Origin: a virus | Virus record (IMG/VR): IMGVR_UViG_3300042308_001789 | Coordinates: 1 to 23,867 of that record | Strand: one strand, 5' to 3' | DNA length: 23,867 bases | Notes under the pieces: generated by a model | Databases searched by the model: none | What the model saw: only the letters and a program-made list of their open reading frames with translations | What the model was told of the DNA's origin: nothing | Shown: positions 1 to 10,550 of the stretch, one piece after another | How the letters are laid out: each line of letters opens with the position of its first letter | Position numbering within the stretch: the first letter of the stretch is position 1 | Translations under genes and position numbers: made by a program

Positions 1-2756
1 GCGGCGGGCTGCTCATCCTTTCGCGGAAACTCTGCTAGCGTCTTACTGATCTCATCCGAAAAAACGTAGGCGCGAACGTCTCCGCCTCCTATCCGCACCT
101 TGTGGGTACTCCGCTTGTCGCTGGAGGGCTGGAAATGTCCCTTTTCAAGTAGGGAGGCTATCACGCTGTCTACTGCGAATCCTGAGCTCCGGAGAAACGT
201 CGCGGCCTCATGCGGGAGGATTGCGGCTAGGGTCTGGCCTGCTCGGGTTGTCCATACCTTGCCTATCGTGCTGGCGTTGGCCTCCGGTGCTGTCTCGTGG
301 TACTGCACGCGCCGAAAGTTCGCGGCAAAAAACGCGGTCAATGCGTCAATGGCCTGGCTCGGCTTGTCGGCTTCTAGCGCCGCGTCGAAAGTCGCCTCTA
401 GATCCTGAGCGGAGAACAGTCCGAACGGTCCGCGGCTGCTCCAGCGGAGTCCGATCGCGGCCGTAAACGTGCTCCATGCAAACTCCATGCTGGCGACGTG
501 GTTCGATACGCGGCGCGTAGTGTCCCGCGCTGGGTGCTTCATCTGTGCGTAGCTGTAGACGCGTGCGGAGAGTTCGCGGTAACGCTCTGCCAGCTGCGCG
601 CGCTCCGTCTCGCTCAGTCCTACTAGATACTCTGCGTACCGTTGTCCCGCGGTTCCGTGGTGGGCGGCGTATAGCGCTGTCTGGTTGTGGATGAGCTCTG
701 CGGCGGCGGCGTCGTTCGTTGCGAACATAGGCGCTTTGATGCTCACTAGGCGGGAGACGGTTCCGGCCTGTTTGCCCATCGTGCTGATACTGCTCTCGCC
801 GGTGCTGATCGCTATGTTTTGGAAGTCTACCGTTGTCTGTGTCCCTGTGATGGTCCCGCGCGCTTTCCCGCGTCCCTGGGTGATCGCGTAAACAAAGGCG
901 GTGACGGATTGGAAGCTGTCGAGCATATGCTGGGTTTCGTCGCGGTAGACGGGGAAGCTGCGGAGTGCTCCGGCGACTCGCTCAACGGCTGTAGCGGTGT
1001 CGTTCCATTGTCCGACAAGGGCGCTACTGCCAAAAATCGACGCGGCCCATTTGATGCTAGTGCTCTTGCCTCCTGAGCTCTCGCCGTGGATATCGAGACA
1101 AAACTGCTCGCATCCGATCAGTTCGATAAGCGGAGCGACAACGGAGGCCGCGTAGGGAAACGCAACGCGGGGATGCGCCTCTAGTACGCGCTCCGTAGAC
1201 TCTTTCCACGTGTTGAAGTCGCCGCGGCTCCTCACCGCCTCTACCTTCGCTCTGATTTCACCTTCTAGCGGCGCAAGGTACAATCCTCCGGCCGTCTCTC
1301 CTGGCGGGTAGTGCGTCTCCTCGTAGCCGCGTATAAATGCTCCCTGCGTCCATCCTGTCGAGTGACTGAGGCGCGTAACGGGAGCTCCAGTCCGCTCCGC
1401 CTCCTCTCGGCAAGCGTCGATGTAGTTTACGAGGTCTCTCGCGCTGTTACTCGTGACGGGCAATCCCTGCGCGGCTAGGGTCACAATGCTGCGGGTGCTG
1501 GCGATGGTTTCGGCGGGTACGTGCAACCTGAGCGCGCCTAGTTTCGGCCACCCTGTCGCTAGGGTCGCATACCGTGTCTGCGTTGCGATATCGAGCGAAC
1601 GGGCTGCGAGAAAGATCGGGGGAAACGCTATCCGCGTCTCTCGCTCGTTTCCTGAGCGGTCCGTATCGTATCGCACTAGCGCCCCATCTCGGGAGAGGGC
1701 GTATCCGTGTGGTAGGCGGATTGTGGAGCGGTCGGCTAGGAGGATGCCTCTCGTATCCTGCTCAATCTCTGCGGCGGGCTGCTCATCCTCCGGCGCGGGC
1801 TCGAGTTTTTCCGGCGCGGGCTCCTCTGCTAGCAGCTGCCTCCGCACCTCCTCGATTGAAGTGAGGCGCGCAAGATCGTTGTAGTCCGTATCTGTCTCCC
1901 CGCGGGTCTCTGGAAACTGCGGCGCTCGGATGTTTGCTCCAGTCCGCTCCGCTGCAACGCGCGCGGCTTTCATCCCTGGGTTGCCTGTAGTCCTATGGTC
2001 GTCGTCCGCTGCTATCACTAGGCGCGCGGAGGGTAGGAGGCTGCGAACGTAGGCGGCGACGGCTGGGAGCTGGGTGGAGTCCATGCTACAGACTGTGAGC
2101 GCTCCGGTTGCCTCGCGGATGGTCGCGCCGGTGGCGTAACCTTCGCAAACGTAGACGGTCTCCAGCGTTCCGGCGATCGGGTAGTAGGTTCCGCTTCGCT
2201 CCATACCTCGCGCGTACCGTTTCTCTCCGTTTGGGTGGATCGTCTGGTAGCCGCGGAGCTCATCCTTTGCGCGGTAGAGCGGGATGAGGATAACGGCGTG
2301 CTCCTCTATCCTGAGTCCGTAACTCTGCACGCGTTTACGGTCTAGGTATCCTACGCTCTGTGTGAGGGGCTGCGCTCGATTCCAGCGCTCTAGCGCGCGC
2401 GCTGCTACAACGTCCTGGCTCGCGCGCTGCTCCGCGTTCTCCGCGGTCTTTCGCTCAGTCTCCCGTTGCATCGCCTCAAGGGTGCTCCGGCCGTGGGCTC
2501 GGTCCTCGTCTCGGATCGCTCTCCATAGCTCATCGGGGCAAGTCCATCCGACGGGCTCCGCGCTCCAGTTGCGAAAGATGCCGCGCGGCTTCCCATTGTC
2601 GCTGTAGCGGTAGCTCCCCTTATCCTTGCGGCTCCCCTTGCCACTATCGGCGGGTACACTGTGCCAGCGGTCGTCTACCTCGATTCCGTTAGGGAAACTG
2701 AGTCCCGCTGCCTCCGCATCCCTGCGGAAACATTCTAGCGCCTCTCTCCGGCTCAT
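1..2756 (-). CDS. TOPRIM/DUF927-type primase-helicase, C-terminus cut by window edge
   Basis: About 918 codons are open from an ATG at 2756 to the left edge with no stop, so the protein is partial. The start has a clear ribosome site (AGGAG, minus strand, 2762-2766). The N-terminal ~190 residues resemble the leading part of TraC/P4-alpha-like primases. A TOPRIM_3-like domain follows, with VYVCEGYATGA near residue 200 and AADDD near 250, the acidic residues that bind metal in primer synthesis. A Pro/Glu/Ala-rich linker (about 305-330) joins a DUF927-like ATPase: STGWTQGAF near 455, Walker A GESSGGKST near 560 and Walker B-like VYRDE near 600. Known relatives prime and unwind DNA at replication forks. 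It is transcribed away from the late genes and faces the repeat-rich control region, which suggests it acts there. The domain assignment is fairly secure; origin binding is inference. Confidence 0.9.
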   Translation of the reverse strand, partial: MSRREALECFRRDAEAAGLSFPNGIEVDDRWHSVPADSGKGSRKDKGSYRYSDNGKPRGIFRNWSAEPVGWTCPDELWRAIRDEDRAHGRSTLEAMQRETERKTAENAEQRASQDVVAARALERWNRAQPLTQSVGYLDRKRVQSYGLRIEEHAVILIPLYRAKDELRGYQTIHPNGEKRYARGMERSGTYYPIAGTLETVYVCEGYATGATIREATGALTVCSMDSTQLPAVAAYVRSLLPSARLVIAADDDHRTTGNPGMKAARVAAERTGANIRAPQFPETRGETDTDYNDLARLTSIEEVRRQLLAEEPAPEKLEPAPEDEQPAAEIEQDTRGILLADRSTIRLPHGYALSRDGALVRYDTDRSGNERETRIAFPPIFLAARSLDIATQTRYATLATGWPKLGALRLHVPAETIASTRSIVTLAAQGLPVTSNSARDLVNYIDACREEAERTGAPVTRLSHSTGWTQGAFIRGYEETHYPPGETAGGLYLAPLEGEIRAKVEAVRSRGDFNTWKESTERVLEAHPRVAFPYAASVVAPLIELIGCEQFCLDIHGESSGGKSTSIKWAASIFGSSALVGQWNDTATAVERVAGALRSFPVYRDETQHMLDSFQSVTAFVYAITQGRGKARGTITGTQTTVDFQNIAISTGESSISTMGKQAGTVSRLVSIKAPMFATNDAAAAELIHNQTALYAAHHGTAGQRYAEYLVGLSETERAQLAERYRELSARVYSYAQMKHPARDTTRRVSNHVASMEFAWSTFTAAIGLRWSSRGPFGLFSAQDLEATFDAALEADKPSQAIDALTAFFAANFRRVQYHETAPEANASTIGKVWTTRAGQTLAAILPHEAATFLRSSGFAVDSVIASLLEKGHFQPSSDKRSTHKVRIGGGDVRAYVFSDEISKTLAEFPRKDEQPA

Positions 2757-2778
2757 GTTGGCTCCTGCGTTGCCTTTT

Positions 2779-2868
2779 CTATCTCATCCTGCTAGGATCC
2801 GTCTCTAGCAGGTCGCGGATCTTGTCCATCCGCTCGGCCTCCGTACCGTTCTCGCTTGGCGCTGTCAA
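2779..2868 (-). CDS. Candidate small leader ORF upstream of primase-helicase
   Basis: A 29-codon frame runs from TTG (2868) to TAG (2779-2781) on the minus strand, or 16 codons from the internal ATG at 2829 (MDKIRDLLETDPSRMR). The ATG form has GGAGG eight bases upstream (complement of 2838-2842). The peptide is helical-looking and charged, and it ends 22 bases before the primase-helicase start. It overlaps the perfect inverted repeat at 2788-2812, so it could be a leader peptide or a small phage protein. Evidence is only the frame and ribosome site; chance is quite possible at this length. Confidence 0.25.
   Translation of the reverse strand: MTAPSENGTEAERMDKIRDLLETDPSRMR
2788..2812. repeat. 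Perfect inverted repeat CCTGCTAG-N9-CTAGCAGG
   Basis: Arms of 8 bp (2788-2795 and 2805-2812) are perfect, with a 9-base spacer. It lies 32 bases upstream of the primase-helicase start, so it could be an operator for a dimeric protein or an RNA hairpin in the leader. The octamer CCTGCTAG occurs again at 9244-9251, upstream of the other minus-strand gene. Confidence 0.6.
2840..2868 (-). promoter_or_regulatory. Possible promoter for primase-helicase
   Basis: On the minus strand a perfect -35 box TTGACA (2868 to 2863) is followed after 17 bases by TACGGA (2845 to 2840). The -10 is poor (only TA matches the consensus). It would give a leader of about 75 bases containing the inverted repeat at 2788-2812. 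It conflicts with the small ORF if that starts at TTG 2868, so at most one of the two readings is right. Confidence 0.25.
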
Positions 2869-2880
2869 GTTACGAGCGGC

Positions 2881-2931
2881 CCCCTAGCGCTGAATCCGGC
2901 TAACTGCGTAGCTAGGGTGAGGCGCTAGGGG
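2881..2931. repeat. 10-bp perfect inverted repeat with 31-base spacer
   Basis: CCCCTAGCGC (2881-2890) is matched exactly by GCGCTAGGGG (2922-2931). The 31-base spacer holds another GCTAG and a TAGGGT. The arms could form a large stem-loop in single-stranded DNA or RNA, or bind a protein at two sites about five helical turns apart. It marks the primase side of the control region. Confidence 0.55.
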
Positions 2932-2948
2932 CGTGCGCGGTGCTGCTG

Positions 2949-2966
2949 GCGGGAGATGTATCCCGC
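2949..2966. repeat. Short hairpin GCGGGA-N6-TCCCGC
   Basis: Six-base perfect arms (2949-2954, 2961-2966) flank the loop GATGTA. The octamer GCTGGCGG is also repeated on either side (2945-2952 and 2964-2971). No T-tract follows, so it is not a typical terminator. Confidence 0.4.
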
Positions 2967-2975
2967 TGGCGGTCC

Positions 2976-3092
2976 GCTGTTCCACAAGTTCCCGCGATTT
3001 CCCGCGCGAATGGGAACGGCTGGGAACGGCTCGGAGCGAGGATCTAAGCGGGTCTCCGCGGCTCCGGTGCGGCTGTTCCACAAGTTCCCGCG
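2976..3092. repeat. 21-bp perfect direct repeat pair, 96 bp apart
   Basis: Positions 2976-2996 and 3072-3092 are identical. Each copy contains two GTTCC cores nine bases apart (as in TGTTCCACAAGTTCCC). The first copy is followed by a third similar unit, TTTCCCGCG, at 2998. A 21-bp identity is far beyond chance in 600 bp and neither copy is in a credible gene, so a protein-binding role is likely. Confidence 0.75.
3011..3030. repeat. Tandem decamer repeat TGGGAACGGC x2
   Basis: Two identical 10-bp units (3011-3020, 3021-3030) are head to tail, which puts the GGAAC cores on the same face of the helix. They point opposite to the GTTCC cores in the flanking 21-bp repeats. Confidence 0.7.
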
Positions 3093-3123
3093 GTTTTCGA
3101 TGATACTACGCGGAGTGTCGGGC

Positions 3124-3164
3124 TTCGTTCGTTCGTTCGTTCCTGAGCTAGGGAGAAACGAACG
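3124..3164. repeat. TTCG x4 tract ending in an inverted repeat
   Basis: Four TTCG units (3124-3139) run into CGTTCGTT (3134-3141), which pairs with AACGAACG (3157-3164) across 15 bases. The structure could be a hairpin or a small operator. Its core differs from the GGAAC iterons, apart from one GTTCC at 3139. Confidence 0.5.
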
Positions 3165-3257
3165 TAGGGAAAGGGGCTCGCGCACGTGTAGAGATAGGTG
3201 TTCATTGTGGAACATGTGTACCAGTGCCTAGATGCTGGCTCTGCGGGCCTTTTTTTG

Positions 3258-3287
3258 TGGGAACAGCGTGGGAACAGTTGGGAACAG
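3258..3287. repeat. Three phased iterons TGGGAACAG
   Basis: Identical 9-bp units start at 3258, 3269 and 3279, spaced 11 and 10 bp, one per helical turn. They follow a seven-T tract (3250-3256), which could ease strand opening. From memory, P4 alpha protein binds type I iterons of similar form (about GGTGAACAG); the likeness is suggestive only and should be checked. Confidence 0.7.
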
Positions 3288-3319
3288 TGCTTGACGCAAA
3301 GTTGAATAACGGGCTCGCG

Positions 3320-3348
3320 TTGCGGCTGGAGCGCTTCGCTGCTAGGGT
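3320..3348 (+). promoter_or_regulatory. Possible late promoter abutting the first late gene
   Basis: TTGCGG (3320-3325), a 17-base gap, then TAGGGT (3343-3348) resembles a GC-rich host promoter of the TANNNT type. Transcription would start at about 3355, exactly at the ATG, giving a leaderless message. Alternatively AGGGTG (3344-3349) is simply the ribosome site, since AAGGGTG precedes other genes here (portal, holin-like gene). Confidence 0.3.
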
Positions 3349-3354
3349 GTTTCC

Positions 3355-4128
3355 ATGCCAAAAATGCGAAAGATTGATGCTCCTCTGGATCCGGCTGCTA
3401 GCGATACGCGGGCGCGCGGAGCGGCTTTCTTTGTCGAGAGTCTCGATTGTGGCGATGTGTTCCGTTCGGTGGGCGTGCCAGCTGGCGCGATTGAAGCGAT
3501 GCAACCTGGCTCTCGCGCCTTCGCGCTGACGATGGGGCGCTGGAGTCTGTGGGAGCTCATCCGGCCGTTCTGTGCAAAGGTGGGCGGCGCTCCTCGGGTC
3601 ACGCTGTCTACGTGGTCCGTAGGTCAAGAGGAGTCGGCTAACCTCGGGGCGCTCCTGCGTAACGGTGAAGTCTCCTCAATCGATGTCTTCGTGGATGAGT
3701 CCTGGCCTTTGCGTCAACAAAAGTTCTGCGGGCTGCTAGTCGGCGCGATAGGTGCTGGCGGCGTGCGGCTGCTCCGTACTCATGCTAAGATCCTCCTAGT
3801 GGAAGGGGAGCGGGGCGTTATGTTCGCTCACGGCTCTCTGAATCTGAATCCTAATCGGCGGCTGGAGTCCTGCGGTATCGAGTTTGATACGGGCGCGGCT
3901 CGGTTCGTCGCTACTGAGTTCGATAGTCTCCGCGCTCACGTTCCGTCCGGCTTGACGGTATCAGCTGAGCGACAACGGGCGATCTTCGATGATTTCGCGC
4001 GAACGGATGGCGGGCGTCCGCATGGGGCTGAGTCGCGGGCGGTCGCGGATGAGGCTGCGGAGGGTGCGGCGGCGGATACCTTCGATGTTCTGGATCTGGA
4101 TGGTGGATGGGATTGGGAGGATGCATGA
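3355..4128 (+). CDS. PLD-like (HxK motif) protein at the head of the packaging operon
   Basis: The product has 257 residues. The start is fixed by an in-frame TAG at 3343. Residues 141-170 contain the half-motif of the phospholipase D superfamily: H143 and K145 (THAKILLV) followed by HGSLNLNPNRR, as in the HxK...GSxN active site. Only one such half is visible, so activity would need a dimer, as in the Nuc/bacterial PLD-like endonucleases. The last ~50 residues are acidic, ending DLDGGWDWEDA. Family members act as phosphodiesterases, including nucleases and DNA-binding proteins. It overlaps the small terminase gene by ATGA, so the two are probably co-translated. That suggests a role in packaging or DNA processing, which is inference. 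A degenerate, non-enzymatic protein is also possible. Confidence 0.75.
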   Translation: MPKMRKIDAPLDPAASDTRARGAAFFVESLDCGDVFRSVGVPAGAIEAMQPGSRAFALTMGRWSLWELIRPFCAKVGGAPRVTLSTWSVGQEESANLGALLRNGEVSSIDVFVDESWPLRQQKFCGLLVGAIGAGGVRLLRTHAKILLVEGERGVMFAHGSLNLNPNRRLESCGIEFDTGAARFVATEFDSLRAHVPSGLTVSAERQRAIFDDFARTDGGRPHGAESRAVADEAAEGAAADTFDVLDLDGGWDWEDA

Positions 4129-4529
4129 CGCGTGAAACTTTCGAGAGTGTCCTGGGCTCCTATGCGGAGGGTAAGTCTCTCAACGGGGTGCTGCGGGAGC
4201 ATGGTACGGGCTTTTGGGATTTCGCGCGCTACCTGAAGCGGGAGGGAGCTCCAGCTGAGGAGGTCTACGCGCTGGCTCGGCAAGCTAACGCTATGGTCCT
4301 CGTGGAACAGATTACGGCCGTGGGCGTCCAAGCTATGCGGGGCAAGGTTCCGGTTGACGCGGCGCGCCTCCATTCGGATAATCTGAAATGGTTGGCGGTT
4401 CGGATGCATCCGGATAGGCTGAATCCTGTGGCGCGAACGGATATCACGTCGGGCGGCGAACCTGCGCGCTACGTTGTCTCGATTCCGCGTATCGATCGTA
4501 TCGAGGATGCGGCTGAGGATCAGGGATGA
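4125..4529 (+). CDS. terS: Terminase small subunit
   Basis: 134 residues from ATG 4125, chosen over an upstream in-frame ATG at 4107 because GGGAGG (4115-4120) sits four bases before it and it forms an ATGA overlap with the preceding gene. The N-terminal part (TFESVLGSYAEGKSLNGVL...) looks like the helix-turn-helix that TerS proteins use to recognise the packaging site. The C-terminal half has the DNLKWLAVRMHPDRL pattern common in this family just before the portal-binding tail. It would bind the viral DNA and regulate the large subunit, whose gene overlaps it by ATGA. Identification rests on this pattern and on the large terminase next door. Confidence 0.85.
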   Translation: MTRETFESVLGSYAEGKSLNGVLREHGTGFWDFARYLKREGAPAEEVYALARQANAMVLVEQITAVGVQAMRGKVPVDAARLHSDNLKWLAVRMHPDRLNPVARTDITSGGEPARYVVSIPRIDRIEDAAEDQG

Positions 4530-8976: not shown

Positions 8977-9236
8977 CTCCTGGGCGTGCAATAGGGGCAA
9001 GGGCAATCGGAGAGGGTGTAACGGGTTCCCGCGGTTCCTCTGCCTACCTCGATTGCGGTAATCGAGCCATCCTCTAGGAGTCGGATGAGCTCCGCGCGTA
9101 TGGTTTTCCCGCCTCCTAACCTGTGTCCGGTGGAGTGTTCGATAAGGTCCGCAAGCGCCGCCGGGGATGGGTGGTAAAGCAGGGCGTGGCAATTCCGGAT
9201 CAGCTGTAGGATCAGTTTCTGGCGGCGGGTCTGCAT
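8973..9236 (-). CDS. Small winged-helix DNA-binding protein with CxCxxC tail
   Basis: 87 residues, the only complete minus-strand gene inside the late region. Its stop overlaps the portal stop by three bases (convergent). AGGA lies six bases before the ATG. The fold reads as a winged helix: helices at about 6-20, 24-35 and 43-55 (GKTIRAELIRLLEDGS), then a hairpin wing ITAIEVGRGTAGTRYTL. A cysteine cluster, C78, C80 and C83 (DCPCPYC), ends the protein and could bind metal or act as a redox switch. Such proteins are usually transcription regulators. A near-palindrome and a promoter candidate lie just upstream, between it and the divergent protease gene, suggesting control of itself and of the head genes. 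The specific function is unknown. Confidence 0.75.
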   Translation of the reverse strand: MQTRRQKLILQLIRNCHALLYHPSPAALADLIEHSTGHRLGGGKTIRAELIRLLEDGSITAIEVGRGTAGTRYTLSDCPCPYCTPRS

Positions 9237-9246
9237 TTGTGTTCCT

Positions 9247-9272
9247 GCTAGTGGGAGTTTCTACCCGCTAGC
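9247..9272. promoter_or_regulatory. Candidate operator: imperfect palindrome between divergent genes
   Basis: GCTAGTGGG (9247-9255) and CCCGCTAGC (9264-9272) form 9-bp arms with one G-T mismatch and an 8-base spacer. The right arm contains the putative -10 of the minus-strand regulator gene. A winged-helix dimer bound here would block that promoter and could affect the plus-strand promoter next to it. It could also be an RNA hairpin. Confidence 0.5.
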
Positions 9273-9293
9273 GGGGCTGCGGTGGTATTATCA
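9265..9293 (-). promoter_or_regulatory. Possible promoter of the minus-strand regulator
   Basis: TTGATA (minus strand, 9293 to 9288; five of six match TTGACA), a 17-base spacer, then TAGCGG (9270 to 9265). The -10 is weak but sits inside the palindrome arm. The leader would be about 20 bases and include the ribosome site. Confidence 0.35.
9283..9291 (+). promoter_or_regulatory. Possible extended -10 promoter for the protease/capsid genes
   Basis: TGGTATTAT (9283-9291) fits an extended -10 (TGnTATAAT, five of six in the hexamer). No good -35 is visible. It overlaps the -35 of the opposite promoter. Transcription would start about 9298, just before a GTG start at 9306, and restart head-gene expression after the antisense gene. 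Confidence 0.35.
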
Positions 9294-9305
9294 AGGGTAG
9301 ACTCT

Positions 9306-10550
9306 GTGAAACTCGGGGTGCATAGTGCCGATATGCGTTCCTCCCGTCTCAAAGTGCGTAGCGTCTCCGTCAATCTGGCGGATGATAGCTCGCTCCGCTG
9401 GGTCTCTCTGATTCCGGAGGCGGTGATTCATGCTCACGGCTCCCGCTGGAATTTCGCGGCGGCTGAGACGGATCCTAATGATCTGTCTTTCCGTTTCGAT
9501 GATGCGGTGGAGTCGCTGGAGCGCTGGCTGCTGGAGTTCGCTCCGCCTATCGCTATCGAGCATGATAAGAACGGGATGGCGGCGGGATACCTTCGGCGCA
9601 TTCGGGTTCTGTCGGCGGCTGAAGCGGCCGCGCTGGGTATCGTCCAGCGGGTATCGCGGATGATTTATGGCGGGCTCGATTTCACCTCTCCTATGTGGGC
9701 TGAGCGGTTCGATGCGGGAGAGATTCCGTACGTCTCGCCTAACATTCGCGCTTATGCTGCTACGGAGCTGGATGAGTTCCCGGCGTATCCGTTTGCGATC
9801 GGGGAAGTCTCGCTCGTCACGATTCCTCAGATCAAGTCTAATCAAGTTCCCGTTGCGGATATGCGCGGGGTTTCTCTCTCGGAAGGTGATCTCATGATGT
9901 CTATGGAAGAATGCGCGGCGTACTGTGCTGAGAACGGAATGGATCAGGCGGCGGTTATGGAGCTCATCGGCAAGCTCTTTGCCGGTGCTCACGCGGAGGC
10001 GCATAAGGCGAATCCTGAGCTCGCGGAGGATCCGGAGGCTATCGAGGCTGCGGCTATCGAGGAGCTGGAGCGCGCTGCGGAGCTGGAGAAGGTAGAGGAG
10101 GATAAGAAAGCGGAGACTCTCCTTGCGGAGAATGGTCGTCTCAAGGCTGATCTCCGGGCTGCTCGCAAGGCTGCGGCTCTCGCTCACGTCCGCGCGGCGC
10201 TCGGCGGTCGCAAGGTTTCGGCTGCTACGGAGGCTACGCTCGCGGATGCCTGGCTGTCTGGTTCGGGCAAGTTCGATGCTCTCCTCAAAGATTTCTCCGG
10301 CCGCGTTGCTACTGCCGCGCGTACCGTTGCTCCGGTCGCTGGCTCTGCCAAGTCGGTGAGCCTGTCGGATGTTATGGGTCCGGCTAACTTTGCGAAGTGG
10401 GATAATCTTTCGGATGATGATCAGTGGGGCTTCATCAAGGCTCTTTCGGAGCGGGAGAAGATCGCTCCGCACCTTGCGGCAAGCTGGATCCGGTTCGGCC
10501 GCGTTCCTGATTCCGTCGTCGAGCAACGCGCCTCTAAGGGCGGTTTCTAG
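9306..10550 (+). CDS. Mu I-like prohead protease with C-terminal scaffold
   Basis: 414 residues if started at GTG 9306, which has AAGGGT seven bases upstream; GTG 9282 and ATG 9333 are alternatives. The N-terminal half resembles the Mu gpI protease family: AIEHDKNGMAAG around H86-D87, the TSPMW segment, and VSPNIRAY with S144 as a likely catalytic serine. About residues 225-300 are charged and helical (coiled-coil scaffold), and the end SDDDQWGFIKALSEREKIAP is a plausible capsid-binding tail. The protease cleaves scaffold and capsid proteins during head maturation. Its position before decoration and capsid genes fits. A nested start at 9894 probably yields the scaffold alone. Confidence 0.88.
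   Translation: MKLGVHSADMRSSRLKVRSVSVNLADDSSLRWVSLIPEAVIHAHGSRWNFAAAETDPNDLSFRFDDAVESLERWLLEFAPPIAIEHDKNGMAAGYLRRIRVLSAAEAAALGIVQRVSRMIYGGLDFTSPMWAERFDAGEIPYVSPNIRAYAATELDEFPAYPFAIGEVSLVTIPQIKSNQVPVADMRGVSLSEGDLMMSMEECAAYCAENGMDQAAVMELIGKLFAGAHAEAHKANPELAEDPEAIEAAAIEELERAAELEKVEEDKKAETLLAENGRLKADLRAARKAAALAHVRAALGGRKVSAATEATLADAWLSGSGKFDALLKDFSGRVATAARTVAPVAGSAKSVSLSDVMGPANFAKWDNLSDDDQWGFIKALSEREKIAPHLAASWIRFGRVPDSVVEQRASKGGF
9894..10550 (+). CDS. Nested in-frame scaffold protein (internal start in protease gene)
   Basis: An internal ATG at 9894 (MMSMEECAAYC...) is in frame with the protease and preceded by GGAAGG (9881-9886) with a seven-base gap, a better ribosome site than the one for the full gene. 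The 218-residue product would be just the helical scaffold part. Mu I/Z and lambda C/Nu3 use the same arrangement. Existence is inferred from the ribosome site, frame and domain boundary. Confidence 0.55.
   Translation: MMSMEECAAYCAENGMDQAAVMELIGKLFAGAHAEAHKANPELAEDPEAIEAAAIEELERAAELEKVEEDKKAETLLAENGRLKADLRAARKAAALAHVRAALGGRKVSAATEATLADAWLSGSGKFDALLKDFSGRVATAARTVAPVAGSAKSVSLSDVMGPANFAKWDNLSDDDQWGFIKALSEREKIAPHLAASWIRFGRVPDSVVEQRASKGGF

Follow-up and report, generated by a model that had tools for sequence, protein, structure and literature searches.

A dense iteron array beside a TOPRIM/DUF927 primase-helicase gene is a probable replication origin of a tailed phage

Positions 2976-3287 of a 23,867-nucleotide viral DNA (the window; the complete, linear IMG/VR record IMGVR_UViG_3300042308_001789) are very probably the replication origin of a tailed phage, and the TOPRIM/DUF927 protein encoded beside them would combine the roles of initiator, replicative helicase and primase in a single polypeptide. 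We favour this reading, which draws on sequence comparison and structural models, because the repeats in this region co-vary with the primase, because the C-terminus of the protein is predicted to fold like the DNA-binding domain of SaPIbov1 Rep, and because an unstable stretch lies between two sets of iterons. A sequence-only reading of the window had already proposed an origin made of iterons bound by the adjoining primase-helicase, and these three lines of evidence support that proposal. Relatives with end overlaps measure 32-33 kb, so the window probably represents about three quarters of a phage genome. Phage records showed no direct DNA similarity to the window and held no annotated DNA relative of it.

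The array was found where it had been placed, in a divergent gap adjoining the primase-helicase gene, which runs leftward, with the genes on the other side running in the opposite direction. To the right lie an endonuclease-like gene, the genes for TerS and TerL, and structural genes (Mu-F-like and scaffold-like proteins). In relatives, terS follows the array directly, and the endonuclease-like gene is an addition in the window; by eye, residues THAKILLVE...GSLNLN of its product recall a phospholipase-D-type motif. Upstream of the primase gene there is also a 10-bp perfect inverted repeat (CCCCTAGCGC/GCGCTAGGGG, 2881-2890 and 2922-2931, 31 bp between the arms). Consensus scans for sigma-70 promoters and terminators gave no signal exceeding shuffles, an Rfam search of 2600-3500 gave no match, and a tRNA search found none. 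The features to which we refer below are as follows.

3-2756, minus strand: TOPRIM primase, DUF927 (MCM-like) helicase and C-terminal winged helix, candidate initiator (918 residues before the record ends)
33-410, minus strand: C-terminal winged-helix domain, residues 783-908, proposed to bind the iterons (domain modelled alone)
2863-2868, minus strand: TTGACA, possible -35 box of a promoter reading left into the primase gene (TGTCAA, unchanged in 6 of 6 aligned sequences)
2976-2996, minus strand: iteron pair of the left set, CGCGGGAACTTGTGGAACAGC, 9-bp spacing (repeat search, relatives' alignment, weight matrix)
3011-3030, plus strand: iteron pair of the left set, two copies of TGGGAACGGC, 10-bp spacing (repeat search, weight matrix)
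3072-3092, minus strand: iteron pair of the left set, identical to 2976-2996 (repeat search, weight matrix)
3124-3164, no strand: (TTCG)n tract with an inverted AACGAACG arm, hairpin-capable, absent from aligned relatives
3186-3235, no strand: 50-bp stability minimum of the gap, flanked by the two iteron sets and a candidate site of unwinding (stability scan)
3205-3215, plus strand: degenerate iteron TTGTGGAACAT, kept at the same place in relatives
3258-3287, plus strand: right iteron set, three copies of TGGGAACAG (repeat search, weight matrix)
3291-3296, plus strand: TTGACG, possible -35 box of a rightward promoter (relatives also have TTGAC after the last iterons)
3355-4128, plus strand: endonuclease-like gene (PHROG 16945) separating the array from terS; no counterpart seen in the compared relatives
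4107-4529, plus strand: terminase small subunit, Sf6-like (profile search, TerS comparison)

The repeats themselves are as first described. Eleven GGAAC/GTTCC cores fall between 2979 and 3285, out of 60 in the whole record; the 21-bp perfect repeat GCTGTTCCACAAGTTCCCGCG occurs at both 2976-2996 and 3072-3092, the decamer is duplicated in tandem at 3011-3030, and the three units at 3258-3287 start 11 and 10 bp apart. A scan of repeat density over the whole record, which the first reading had suggested as a check, found nowhere else comparable. The 11 cores compare with a maximum of 3-7 per 320 bp in 300 order-2 Markov shuffles, and GGGAAC/GTTCCC was present 7 times in the array versus at most 4 times in such shuffles. 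When every 6-mer was scanned at every position with no preset motif, the array ranked first in the 23.9-kb record and outscored 40 of 40 shuffles. A weight matrix built from relatives only identified 7 sites at 2984-3289, where shuffles gave no more than 4 per 320 bp. Individual cores differ in standing: the GTTCC at 3139, inside the (TTCG)n tract, is probably not a repeat unit, and the GGAAC at 3209 belongs to a degenerate unit, TTGTGGAACA, that is nevertheless kept in relatives.

We then considered the protein. Pfam profiles matched it as Toprim_3 (6e-10) and DUF927 (2.5e-35). In an AlphaFold2 model (45 sequences, mean pLDDT 84.5), residues 337-918 aligned with SCCmec Cch (5dgk, Z 30.7) and SaPIbov1 Rep (8tch, Z 30.0), and the TOPRIM part aligned with T7 primase (Z 16.9). 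The C-terminal domain folded alone matched the C-terminus of 8tch (Z 13.3; Foldseek E 4e-5), 5dgk (Z 10.5), and TcpK, a DNA-binding protein with a structure in complex with oriT DNA (Z 9.9). The Pfam helix-turn-helix profile of Cch, HTH_56, scored 0.012/0.00073 in the window protein, below the cut-off, and above the cut-off in two relatives (L004 and L006). As modelled, the window protein is a T7/DnaG-like primase fused to an MCM-like helicase of the SaPIbov1-Rep/Cch type with the matching winged helix.

Relatives were reached via TerL because a scan of viral contigs with the window primase protein alone found none. The TerL scan yielded 18 loci, 17 of them with a TerL 70-76% identical, and the primase-helicase was also visible in 11. 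Six relatives have a primase that matches that of the window at about 55% identity over the aligned part (45% in the short L002 fragment), and their primase-terS gap held 14-16 GGAAC/GTTCC units. These arrays span about 450 bp and consist mostly of GTGGGAACAG in either orientation, paired at distances of 9-11 bp; compared with them, the window array has fewer and less regular units. Two sister groups, with TerL about 70-72% identical but primases only 33-36% or 26% identical, lacked GGGAAC-type units altogether. In their place, one group (L003, L006 and L024) carried 10-15 copies of TGGGAAG[AG] in the gap, and the other (L007, L010 and L015) carried 8-10 copies of GGTAACAGG. In the latter clade a DEAD/ResIII-type helicase gene lies between primase and array (L007 7012-8736, L010 7049-8761). 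The L015 array is a large mirror image (9038-9128 versus 9220-9310; 91-nt arms, 79% complementary, site order ++-++--+--), a layout well suited to the head-to-head loading of two rings. When two clade A relatives were scanned along their whole length with the weight matrix, each had one dense array; RecT, YqaJ exonuclease and resolvase genes were found, and among the scanned ORFs there was no other initiator or repressor.

The stretch between the two iteron sets is weakly paired. In the window its instability is modest (rank 59 of 4764 stretches), and at the equivalent place in L004, L008 and L018 it ranks first in the whole locus. The least stable 50 bp of the locus falls inside the array in those three loci and also in L006, L007 and L047. 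Cumulative GC skew rises from the array position in the window, where the gene strand also switches and confounds the skew, and the cumulative-skew minimum coincides with the array in only one of four longer relatives, so that skew lends the origin no clear support there. Other points that weigh against the origin reading are the sparser, less regular array of the window, the sub-threshold HTH_56 match of its protein, the location of the array 5' of the gene where SaPIs and PICIs have theirs directly 3', and the lack of a strong array at about 25 of the 56 full-length loci in the first survey described below.

By analogy with SaPI Rep, Cch2 and P4 alpha, which serve as our guide for binding, ring assembly, melting and priming, initiation might proceed as follows. 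The C-terminal winged-helix domain would bind the GTGGGAACAG iterons, which run in both directions and form pairs spaced by 9-11 bp. Two MCM-like rings would then assemble, one on each of the iteron sets flanking approximately 3186-3235, and would melt this low-stability stretch, load on the strands and travel outward. The fused TOPRIM domain would prime both forks, with host or other phage enzymes carrying out elongation.

A different function for the repeats would be that of a multiple operator, bound by a transcriptional regulator of two divergent promoters and without a role in replication. The array does sit in a gap between divergent genes, and the possible -35 boxes TTGACA and TTGACG flank it. 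However, no regulator gene was seen adjoining the array in the relatives examined, the repeat follows the primase-helicase from clade to clade, and at 8-15 sites most arrays exceed the usual number of operators. The repeat also adjoins TOPRIM-DUF927 genes in unrelated contexts, in most cases on the 3' side, where a divergent promoter would not be expected. We therefore consider a purely regulatory array improbable. Because the array lies between divergent genes, its occupancy could additionally regulate both promoters; this, like possible control by the initiator of its own expression, is compatible with the origin reading.

TerS proteins often bind repeats near their own gene, and terS is near the array in the window clade, so that the repeats could instead be a pac or cos site recognised by the TerS encoded to the right. 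The TerS N-terminal domain, however, changes without the repeat and stays constant while the repeat changes: the window TerS is Sf6-like at its N-terminus and that of L004 resembles L006, yet the window and L004 share a repeat and L006 differs. The repeat thus does not track the DNA-binding domain of TerS. In Aeromonas elements with the same repeat, furthermore, the array is directly 3' of the TOPRIM-DUF927 gene. This dissociation of TerS and repeat led us to reject a packaging site, which is very unlikely. Chance or compositional clustering in GC-rich intergenic DNA was a concern, as the motif had been picked after the sequence was viewed, but it is scarcely credible given the unbiased 6-mer scan and the shuffles, and it is refuted by conservation in independent relatives with more copies. 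Host DnaA sites recruiting the host replisome are just as implausible: TGTGGAACA resembles TGTGGATAA and, on inspection, the degenerate units TTGTGGAACA are about two positions off a DnaA box, but most units are TGGGAACA, unlike that box, and the repeat changes wholesale between sister phages together with the phage-encoded initiator.

Arrays of the kind that we read as an origin are not confined to this group of phages. In Aeromonas and related genomes, distant TOPRIM-DUF927 genes have the same TGGGAACA array directly 3' of the gene, which is the side on which arrays lie in most other DUF927 loci as well; in the window clade they lie 5'. Loci from Gammaproteobacteria add variants (GGCTACA, GGTAACC, TGGGACA, GGTGACA and others). 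The arrays of L047 and L030 share one layout (++-+++---+---) with all 13 sites changed from GGGAAC in L030 to GGTTAC in L047, and along the entire L047 protein the 25 residues that set it apart most specifically from the GGGAAC group are those of the C-terminal wing. A first survey without a preset motif covered 56 full-length TOPRIM-DUF927 loci, some of them overlapping; 31 had a strong 6-mer cluster, in 24 cases no more than 700 bp from the gene, and the inserted-gene clade accounts for most of the roughly 25 loci without a strong array. Among approximately 100 DUF927 loci surveyed, similar arrays adjoin the gene in about half; the same search thereby gives about half of the examined DUF927 helicases, those of cultured phages included, a candidate origin next to the gene. 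In named tailed phages, among them the cultured THSA-485A, FP_Epona and phiRg507T2_3, the arrays lie just 3' of the helicase gene, and the examined stretches of the four records listed below hold no origin or repeat annotation.

THSA-485A, L242 4607-4898: iteron-like array 3' of the DUF927 gene (GGTAACCGA)
FP_Epona, L243 4800-5088: iteron-like array 3' of the DUF927 gene (TAGGTGAAACA)
phiRg507T2_3, L244 4610-4810: iteron-like array 3' of the DUF927 gene (GTAACA)
AC844P1, L246 4441-4718: iteron-like array 3' of the DUF927 gene

Repeat clusters (e.g., GTCCCA, 7-8 copies) also occur about 500 bp 3' of the TOPRIM gene in L071-L099, whose TOPRIM primases accompany non-DUF927 helicases, and because of these clusters the rule of an adjacent origin may be wider than DUF927 helicases. 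To our knowledge, the origins of most environmental phages have not been identified; here the sequence points to a putative origin, to its initiator and to the binding domain of that protein.

The variation among iterons also allowed a search for residues that might read them. We computed per-column mutual information over 513 columns for 30 non-redundant pairs of initiator and GGnnACA-type iteron. For base b3, the top two of the 513 columns were residues 808 and 886 (window numbering), both in the C-terminal winged helix, and residue 886 was also the top column for base b4.

333-335, minus strand: codon of Ala808, best co-variation with b3 (suggestive)
99-101, minus strand: codon of Lys886, in the wing, co-varying with b3 and b4 (suggestive)

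In simulations along the helicase tree, the value for residue 808 was equalled in 0 of 200 runs and that for residue 886 in 2%, but in 39% of runs the top-scoring column did as well as the observed maximum. Because of this last figure, and because residue 808 was chosen after inspection of the data, we offer the residue 808 code as a conjecture. These sequence data are suggestive of two winged-helix residues setting the variable iteron bases. More broadly, and tentatively, it is possible that the DUF927 MCM-like initiators encoded by phages and genomic islands belong to a single large family, with iterons that are mostly GGnnACA and variable bases read by a few winged-helix residues at the positions equivalent to window Ala808 and Lys886. 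If this is true, the sequence of an origin would be predictable from that of the protein, which would amount to a readable code of origin recognition. At least eight changes at one iteron base occurred along the helicase tree, and this natural series of iteron switches makes the choice of origin by an MCM-like initiator testable.

The suggestion that the window carries a P4-like replicon was borne out in part. P4 alpha likewise joins a TOPRIM primase (EGYAT motif) to a helicase within a single protein; it ends in a winged helix, the fold predicted for the C-terminus of the window protein. An hhalign comparison matched the window protein to P4 alpha (probability 99.9, E 2e-32), best over the N-terminal half. 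The P4 type I iteron GGTGAACAG, taken from the annotated record, equals the window unit TGGGAACAG at 7 of 9 bases without being identical, and P4 type I iterons are paired about 9-11 bp apart in both orientations, a spacing similar to that in the window. In contrast, the P4 alpha helicase is of the D5/SF3 type (Pfam D5_N, Pox_D5), whereas the window helicase is DUF927, and P4 has two cis regions (ori and crr) as opposed to the one dense array in each whole-scanned clade A relative. The C-terminal domain of the window protein, a predicted winged helix, gave no profile match to the C-terminus of P4 alpha, and we dropped homology between these domains; the P4 domain was also absent from the fold matches, which is no evidence that the folds differ. 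The comparison with P4 suits the architecture and the repeat, but in helicase and DNA-binding domain the window protein is of the SaPI Rep/SCCmec Cch kind and not D5; the statement that the window works like P4 stands, and the statement that it is a P4-type replicon does not.

Two cultured tailed phages have the same helicase type, in the DnaG primase-MCM-like helicase of the Faecalibacterium phage FP_Epona and the DUF927 protein of the Thermoanaerobacterium phage THSA-485A, with iterons that differ in sequence and side. Cch2 of SCCmec resembles our reading of the window in being a self-loading initiator helicase whose C-terminal domain, when isolated, binds the Cch2 repeats, short AAGTG direct repeats adjacent to the gene (PMC7581432); unlike the window protein, it is a member of the Primase_Cterm/D5 family, and its primase is separate. 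SaPI Rep is also reported to recognise short iterons beside its own gene via its C-terminal domain (PMC7581432), and PICI origins are described as two iteron sets flanking an AT-rich region (PMC6092414); features of the SaPIbov1 origin were taken from papers. SaPIbov1 Rep and the PICI rep-ori (as well as SCCmec Cch) share with the window a DUF927 MCM-like helicase and the same C-terminal winged-helix fold, and the PICI rep-ori likewise has short iterons adjoining the gene in two sets around a weakly paired region. The differences are that the window protein has a TOPRIM primase fused in front of the helicase, that the SaPI/PICI origin is directly 3' of rep whereas the window array occupies a divergent gap on the 5' side of the gene, and that SaPIs and PICIs are satellites whereas the window is from a full tailed phage with TerS, TerL, Mu-F-like and scaffold-like proteins. 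Because the window protein has a helicase and a DNA-binding domain of the SaPI Rep/Cch kind (DUF927, MCM-like), the nearest known replicon is that of the phage-inducible chromosomal islands (SaPI Rep/ori).
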